Assembly (NCBI RefSeq): GCF_022530855.2 | Contig: NZ_CP099567.1 | Coordinates: forward strand, 2,976,001 to 3,040,000 | Direction of reading: 5' to 3' | From: Candidatus Vondammii sp. HM_W22 | GTDB taxonomy: Bacteria; Pseudomonadota; Gammaproteobacteria; Chromatiales; Chromatiaceae | DNA: 64,000 bases | Shown here: one piece after another, positions 36,045 through 36,212 of the stretch | Numbering within the stretch: the first letter of the stretch is position 1 | Layout of the letters: every line of letters begins with the position of its first letter | Notes under the pieces: model-generated | Database searches by the model: none | What the model was told of the DNA's origin: nothing | Seen by the model: only the letters and a program-made list of their open reading frames with translations | Position numbers and translations under genes: made by a program

Positions 36045-36110
36045 GCTGGCTGGCTGGCTGGCTGGCTGGCTGGCTGGCTGGCTGGCTGGCTGGCTGGCTG
36101 GCTGGCTGGC
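36045..36110. repeat. Tetranucleotide repeat (GCTG)16
   Basis: Sixteen perfect GCTG units plus two bases. The array lies inside an 81-codon open frame (35913-36158, plus strand) encoding AGWL repeats, which has no recognised homologue. It lies 73 bases upstream of a rho-independent terminator. Perfect tetranucleotide arrays of this length are prone to slippage and cause phase variation in other bacteria; AGCC, the complement, is the unit in some Haemophilus contingency genes. Confidence 0.95.
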
Positions 36111-36182
36111 AATGCAGTCTGCTGCGTGTCCCGGAGAATCCAAGCTGAAATAATGTAACAGCAAATTAAGTGATTTACCGAG

Positions 36183-36212
36183 GGCCGCAGATGCAATCAT
36201 CTGCGGCCTTTT
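36183..36212 (+). terminator. Rho-independent terminator upstream of the EamA pseudogene
   Basis: An 11-bp perfect stem GGCCGCAGATG / CATCTGCGGCC with loop CAAT is followed by TTTT. It would end a plus-strand transcript coming through the GCTG repeat, although no recognised gene is present there. Confidence 0.85.

Follow-up and report, generated by a model that had tools for sequence, protein, structure and literature searches.

A perfect (GCTG)16.5 array in a predicted Trp-codon leader: probable neutral expansion of control codons before a broken EamA gene

What is a perfect tetranucleotide array of 66 bases doing directly upstream of a transporter gene that is itself broken? The question is raised by one locus in a stretch of 64,000 nucleotides of Candidatus Vondammii sp. 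HM_W22, referred to here in its entirety as the window. The original prediction placed the array within an 81-codon frame, upstream of a strong terminator and a broken EamA exporter gene, and proposed that slippage of the repeat makes the locus a possible contingency switch. The array, the terminator and the broken gene are all borne out below, and the placement of the array in an RNA leader with a terminator at its end, before EamA, is supported by a conserved attenuator-like element in relatives; the switch is not. The reading that we consider probable, with appreciable room for doubt, is that the EamA leader is a control-codon attenuator in which the array represents control codons expanded by slippage, and that the expansion is most likely neutral with EamA broken. 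The features of the locus are as follows.

35961..35990, plus strand: likely leader promoter, TTGACT (35961-35966), 18 nt, CACTCT (35985-35990), in a layout common to the relatives.
35997..36158, plus strand: leader peptide ORF in the present phase, 53 codons, predicted to be leaderless; the position of the ATG is conserved in the relatives.
36045..36110, plus strand: perfect (GCTG)16.5 array of 66 bases; in-frame Trp codons in the present phase at 36051, 36063, 36075, 36087 and 36099.
36121..36133, plus strand: candidate antiterminator arm GCTGCGTGTCCCG, pairing with the 5' arm of the terminator at -15.2 kcal/mol; the same relation is seen in the relatives.
36180..36211, plus strand: terminator-like hairpin with the core GGCCGCAGATG-CAAT-CATCTGCGGCC, a 14-bp stem of -24.6 kcal/mol; the same hairpin precedes EamA in the relatives.
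36233..37110, plus strand: broken EamA transporter gene, in which the frame changes near 36739-36758 and an in-frame TAG occurs at 37018-37020; both pieces match Pfam PF00892.

The length of the array is far beyond chance, as judged from the rarity of GCTG and other tetranucleotide tracts in its own genome and in those of its family and class. The genome (3.35 Mb, one contig) contains no other array of at least six GCTG units, and the runner-up among perfect tetranucleotide tracts measures 15 bases in the 464 kb scanned (the window and 20 stretches of 20 kb). Such arrays are not common in the group: of 116 family genomes, 2 contain (GCTG)6, and of 274 class genomes, 2 contain (GCTG)8, the source genome being one of the two each time. 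Shorter GCTG arrays of 7 units in L161 (G088:C117:3259-3286) and 8 units in L164 (G279:C1:2475575-2475606) do not lie in EamA leaders where inspected. Both were set aside as further cases: the AAGGCC[GA]C motif is absent from L161 on the strand of the array, and the 280-nt stretch of G279 that was inspected by eye has no hairpin of the kind found here. Repeats of other types were also encountered: another long microsatellite, (TGCAAG)12, is located in the source genome where a 103-codon ORF begins (L145:3044-3115; G000:C1:763044-763115), and at 44453-44520 of the window there is a 9-base repeat of 7.7 copies of TCAAGGCCA, contained in a 105-codon ORF (44329-44646) that reads as Ile-Lys-Ala repeats.

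The array is embedded in what looks like a short leader ORF. The 81-codon ORF that had been taken as its frame does exist, running from ATG 35913 on the plus strand, but was rejected as the gene: the likely promoter falls inside it, so that ATG 35997, located 6 nt after the -10 box, is the probable start and the leader comprises 53 codons. The -10 box is poor, and a generic promoter scan of 35800-36400 did not list the site; the promoter call is a likely one that rests on the layout conserved in the relatives. A generic terminator scan of the same interval missed the hairpin at 36180-36211, the T tail of which is short (TTTTCCG). Rfam searches of 35000-38000 of the window (E up to 1) gave no match, nor did a plasmid collection queried with 35850-36250, and the leader flanks compared with their own genome returned, beyond the locus itself, only matches of E 0.4 to 6.4, including a match of the hairpin to itself. 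The EamA alignment falls into two pieces, 36236-36739 and 36739-37110, with one TAG in the second. EamA has its own start, 3' of the hairpin, and the array was accordingly rejected as a part of the EamA frame. Slippage therefore cannot switch EamA as one fused frame.

Relatives of the gene were surveyed for the hairpin. EamA matches occur in 37 of the 116 genomes of the family and in 83 of the 274 of the class; the source genome is in both sets, leaving 118 others, of which 100 were examined (35 family, 65 class). G136, in which the gene stands at the very start of the contig, was left out, as were 17 class matches, mostly the weakest. One locus (L049) was too short, and 99 upstream regions were scored. 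By a fixed rule, which asks for a hairpin with a T run no more than 250 nt from the EamA start, 83 of the 99 upstreams were positive versus 36 of 990 dinucleotide shuffles; the same hairpin rule was satisfied in 62 of 680 windows taken elsewhere in these loci. Among the 16 of 99 that failed, L065 has a match beginning at residue 30 and an upstream stretch that was wrongly cut, and L043, L048, L096 and L116 have a hairpin visible by eye; all five were scored as misses. Conversely, the hairpin of L067, which by eye seems to lie behind a tRNA gene, is within the 83 and was dropped later, giving the 82 relatives used below. An arm of the type AAGGCCGCAG or AAGGCCACAG is common to most of the relatives' hairpins. 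At gathering scores, Rfam found only a tRNA, in L013, among 13 of the relatives' loci. Together with the tests below, the comparison indicates that the leader is a conserved attenuator-like element before EamA.

A set of named genomes, read by eye, has a similar leader and hairpin in 5 of 8 relatives. In L026 they stand directly before EamA, and in L027, L028, L029 and L031 (two Hydrogenophilales MAGs, Dechloromonas sp. CZR5 and an Azonexus MAG) they precede a gene for type II chorismate mutase that is followed by EamA; Pfam PF01817 is found on the mutase proteins of L028 and L027. No leader or hairpin was seen in the stretch inspected by eye in L024, L025 and L030. The chorismate mutase neighbour hints at a link to aromatic amino acids. 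As a control, the same rule applied within 450 nt of trpE found a hairpin with a T run in 1 of 30 relatives (L167-L196, 30 loci from 34 genomes with a match, including L183 with only 99 nt upstream), and TGGTGG occurs somewhere within 450 nt in 6 of the 30 trpE loci. The hairpin count suggests that trpE in the relatives may not be attenuated in this way.

The region between promoter and hairpin has an equally regular layout. In 67 of the 82 relatives an ATG follows the -10 box of the best sigma-70-like site at a distance of 6-8 nt, versus 3.6% in shuffles. The usual distance from -10 box to transcription start being about 7 nt, a leaderless transcript is predicted, beginning at the AUG in the relatives and in the window. 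All but one of these ATGs (66 of the 67) open an ORF, 65 of 26-36 codons and one of 40, and the 66 ORFs end 20-43 nt 5' of the hairpin. Trp is present in 63 of them, as one codon in 42, two in 18 and three in 3, with none in the remaining 3. Consecutive control codons are common in trp-type leaders and are not needed for the mechanism; here a row of several control codons is not the pattern, and a single Trp prevails.

Leaders picked blind to Trp were obtained in 75 of the 82 relatives, the other 7 having no leader that passed the rule, and 71 of the 75 contain Trp. Measured from the stretch that pairs best with the 5' arm of the terminator, a Trp codon is found 9-20 nt further 5' in 51 of the 75, versus 12.0 expected when codons are shuffled within the leader; the mode of this spacing is 15-16 nt, and at the expected distance Trp is enriched more than any other residue. 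Leaders also prefer their own terminator arm to those of others as a pairing partner, both in the full set (mean Z -0.78, n = 82) and in a thinned one (mean Z -0.69, n = 67), with 0 of 5000 permutations reaching these values in either case and relatedness ignored in the permutations. A protector (1:2) pairing, in which the arm would be bound by the stretch preceding it, was not detected, 33 of 76 being better than shuffled.

In light of this arrangement the following mechanism can be proposed. Transcription would start at the AUG of the short leader peptide or no more than a base or two away, and a Trp codon of the peptide would stand about 15 nt before the antiterminator arm. A ribosome waiting at the Trp codon would leave the arm free to pair with the 5' arm of the terminator, resulting in read-through into EamA, whereas a ribosome moving on would cover the arm, the terminator would form and transcription would stop. 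Control-codon attenuators are old knowledge, and much of what characterizes them is seen here: a short leader ORF between promoter and terminator in 66 of 82 relatives and in the window, for which translation is predicted; a control codon before the arm; and pairing of the arm with the 5' arm of the terminator, such that antiterminator excludes terminator. The trp operon leader is departed from in that the gene downstream is EamA and not one for Trp biosynthesis. Both the sensing of Trp-tRNA and the direction of control are points that we infer, and it speaks against the model that an exporter induced by Trp shortage makes no obvious sense.

An attenuator that senses something other than Trp-tRNA, be it a nascent peptide with a ligand or a general slowing of the ribosome, would account for the single Trp in 42 of 66 leaders, for their richness in Arg (14.1% of leader residues) and for a target that is a transporter rather than a Trp biosynthesis gene. 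We nevertheless regard it as unlikely, since no residue is as enriched as Trp at the expected distance from the arm (the 51 against 12.0 given above) and the remainder of the peptide is unconserved. Among 10 hand-picked pairs of leaders, codon changes numbered 59 nonsynonymous and 19 synonymous, there was no excess of third-position changes (32/36/41 by position), and 11 of 13 Trp codons were kept. A peptide so little conserved would fit a control-codon leader better than a peptide-sensing one. With the peptide otherwise unconserved, the case for coding is drawn from the start, the stop and the placement of Trp.

Leader and hairpin might alternatively form a unit of their own, a small gene or small RNA with a terminator, that happens to precede EamA without regulating it. 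This would explain why the hairpin is 146-318 nt away from EamA in L043, L048, L051, L095, L103 and L104, and why the leader of the window has stayed intact before a broken gene; in most loci the link to EamA is close, and this, the preference for the own arm and the Trp-to-arm spacing fit regulation better, so that a separate unit appears quite improbable.

Two known systems resemble the proposed Trp-codon attenuator. In the available text of PMC7298713, the trpL of Sinorhizobium meliloti is a leaderless attenuator that controls trpE(G) through consecutive Trp codons in a 14-codon peptide; as predicted here, its transcript starts from the ATG of a Trp-containing leader peptide and runs to a terminator, but the leaders described above differ in their EamA target, in having mostly a single Trp and in a length of some 30 codons. 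Leaderless short ORFs with cysteine codons act as attenuators in Mycobacterium smegmatis, according to the accessible part of a review (PMC9031893), and share with the present case a leaderless short ORF (predicted here) as the amino-acid-sensing leader, while amino acid, phylum and target gene are different. A literature search found no leader peptide or attenuator of an EamA gene in titles and the starts of abstracts, which is weak evidence with subscription journals mostly outside the search, and the portion of PMC2965389 that was available names no EamA leader; the EamA leader switch, widespread as it seems to be, is apparently undescribed so far. If the model holds, an apparently leaderless Trp-codon attenuator precedes a transporter gene in many gammaproteobacterial families, such a hairpin being absent, by the rule used for EamA, from trpE in 29 of 30 relatives, and both the substrate of EamA and the logic of its control become open to a simple reporter test.

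The leaders of some relatives indicate how the array may have arisen. They contain the codons CGC TGG CTG (Arg-Trp-Leu, RWL), which include the 8-mer GCTGGCTG; this 8-mer occurs in 8 of 83 leaders versus about 0.012 per leader in the remaining upstream DNA, and the array occupies the position of the Trp (RWL) in the relatives' leaders. This suggests that codons GCTGGCTG at the control position were the seed, which in the source genome would have been expanded by slippage to (GCTG)16.5. No such array is present in the relatives' upstreams examined (last 300 nt), in which the longest period-4 tract is a GC run of 13 bases, and the longest GCTG tract among the relatives' upstreams listed is 10 bases. 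The nearest EamA piece is that of L050 (66% over 166 residues), the leader of which, aligned by eye, best fits the phase n = 0 mod 3, so that the array, now at n = 16, has probably left its old phase. By local alignment score, the n = 0 mod 3 phase was favoured in 5 of the 6 leaders scored in the L041-L050 group (L050 itself was not scored), and the means over all leaders were 16.9, 16.3 and 14.0 for the phases, a small margin.

The consequences of a change in repeat number can be read from the sequence in part. (GCTG)n encodes Ala-Gly-Trp-Leu whichever the phase, and the leader stops at 36148, 36153 or 36158, in each case 20-30 nt 5' of the hairpin, which begins at 36180. With the same peptide in every phase and all three stops before the hairpin, frame switching should be nearly silent. 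By coordinates, the distance from the last Trp codon to the antiterminator arm is 14, 18 or 22 nt depending on phase, and 22 nt at present. The RNA of the array folds on itself with -51.3 kcal/mol, and so strong a fold might slow a ribosome.

These numbers allow for a repeat that tunes rather than switches, its length setting the sensitivity of the Trp sensor in steps. Each unit would shift the last Trp codon relative to the arm, cycling through the three spacings, and every third unit would add a Trp codon, while the stop codon would hardly move; such tuning could have worked while EamA was intact, or might still act on a truncated product or on genes downstream. Trp is indeed read in every phase and the spacings lie around the 15-16 nt mode of the relatives, but the present 22 nt is outside the common range, EamA is broken and none of the relatives examined has an array, and we find a tuning role very doubtful.

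A contingency locus, in which repeat number would turn expression on or off, has a real counterpart in the pil1 locus of Streptococcus gallolyticus. As far as the available text of PMC3894217 goes, pil1 has 22 GCAGA repeats in a leader-peptide ORF, the shifted phases of which end 4 bp ahead of the terminator, inside it or beyond it. The likeness to the pil1/pil3 leader is plain, with a long perfect tandem repeat in a leader ORF and a terminator behind it (PMC3894217, same portion). Yet in pil1/pil3 shifted phases turn on pili and the genes work, whereas in the window no phase stops at, within or past the terminator (36148, 36153 and 36158 versus 36180), and the gene that repeat number would have to control is not intact, being split over two frames with a TAG (compared with PMC3894217 as available). 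The absence of the array from the relatives' upstreams examined adds to the objections, and an on/off switch of this kind is highly improbable. That the length of the array is an artefact of assembly or sequencing is barely credible: it is known from one assembly alone, but the array is perfect, the genome is in one contig and has another long array, (TGCAAG)12, elsewhere, and relatives' leaders have the (GCTG)2 seed.

In the expanded-control-codon reading that we prefer, the array is most likely neutral, because EamA is broken and the leader has no intact product to regulate. Selection on the array by way of EamA is unlikely, and neutral expansion in a decaying leader is the most likely history. 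The array would then exemplify how the codons of a control peptide can seed a microsatellite, and would illustrate why not every repeat in a leader has to be a switch.

On the 5' side of the locus a PNPOx/CREG-type gene occupies the opposite strand, and a DsbD_2-type gene is found further 3'. In G001, G011 and G012 (L015, L018 and L016) matches to these two flanking genes are so near each other that EamA would not fit between them, and the three genomes, of which G001 is the only other one drawn from the genus, have no EamA match at E 1e-30. With the flanking genes adjacent and EamA missing in G001, G012 and G011, the EamA unit is either gained in the genome of the window or lost in those three. 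In G008, G014 and G021 EamA is elsewhere in the genome, with the same hairpin in front. A sequence search of solved structures with an EamA relative found none, and a search of NCBIfam gave three matches, all well under cut-offs, so that no substrate is named for the transporter. On the minus strand at 33896-35222 of the window, adjoining ORFs look by eye like fragments of one broken ATPase gene, and such a putative broken gene is in keeping with decay around the array.
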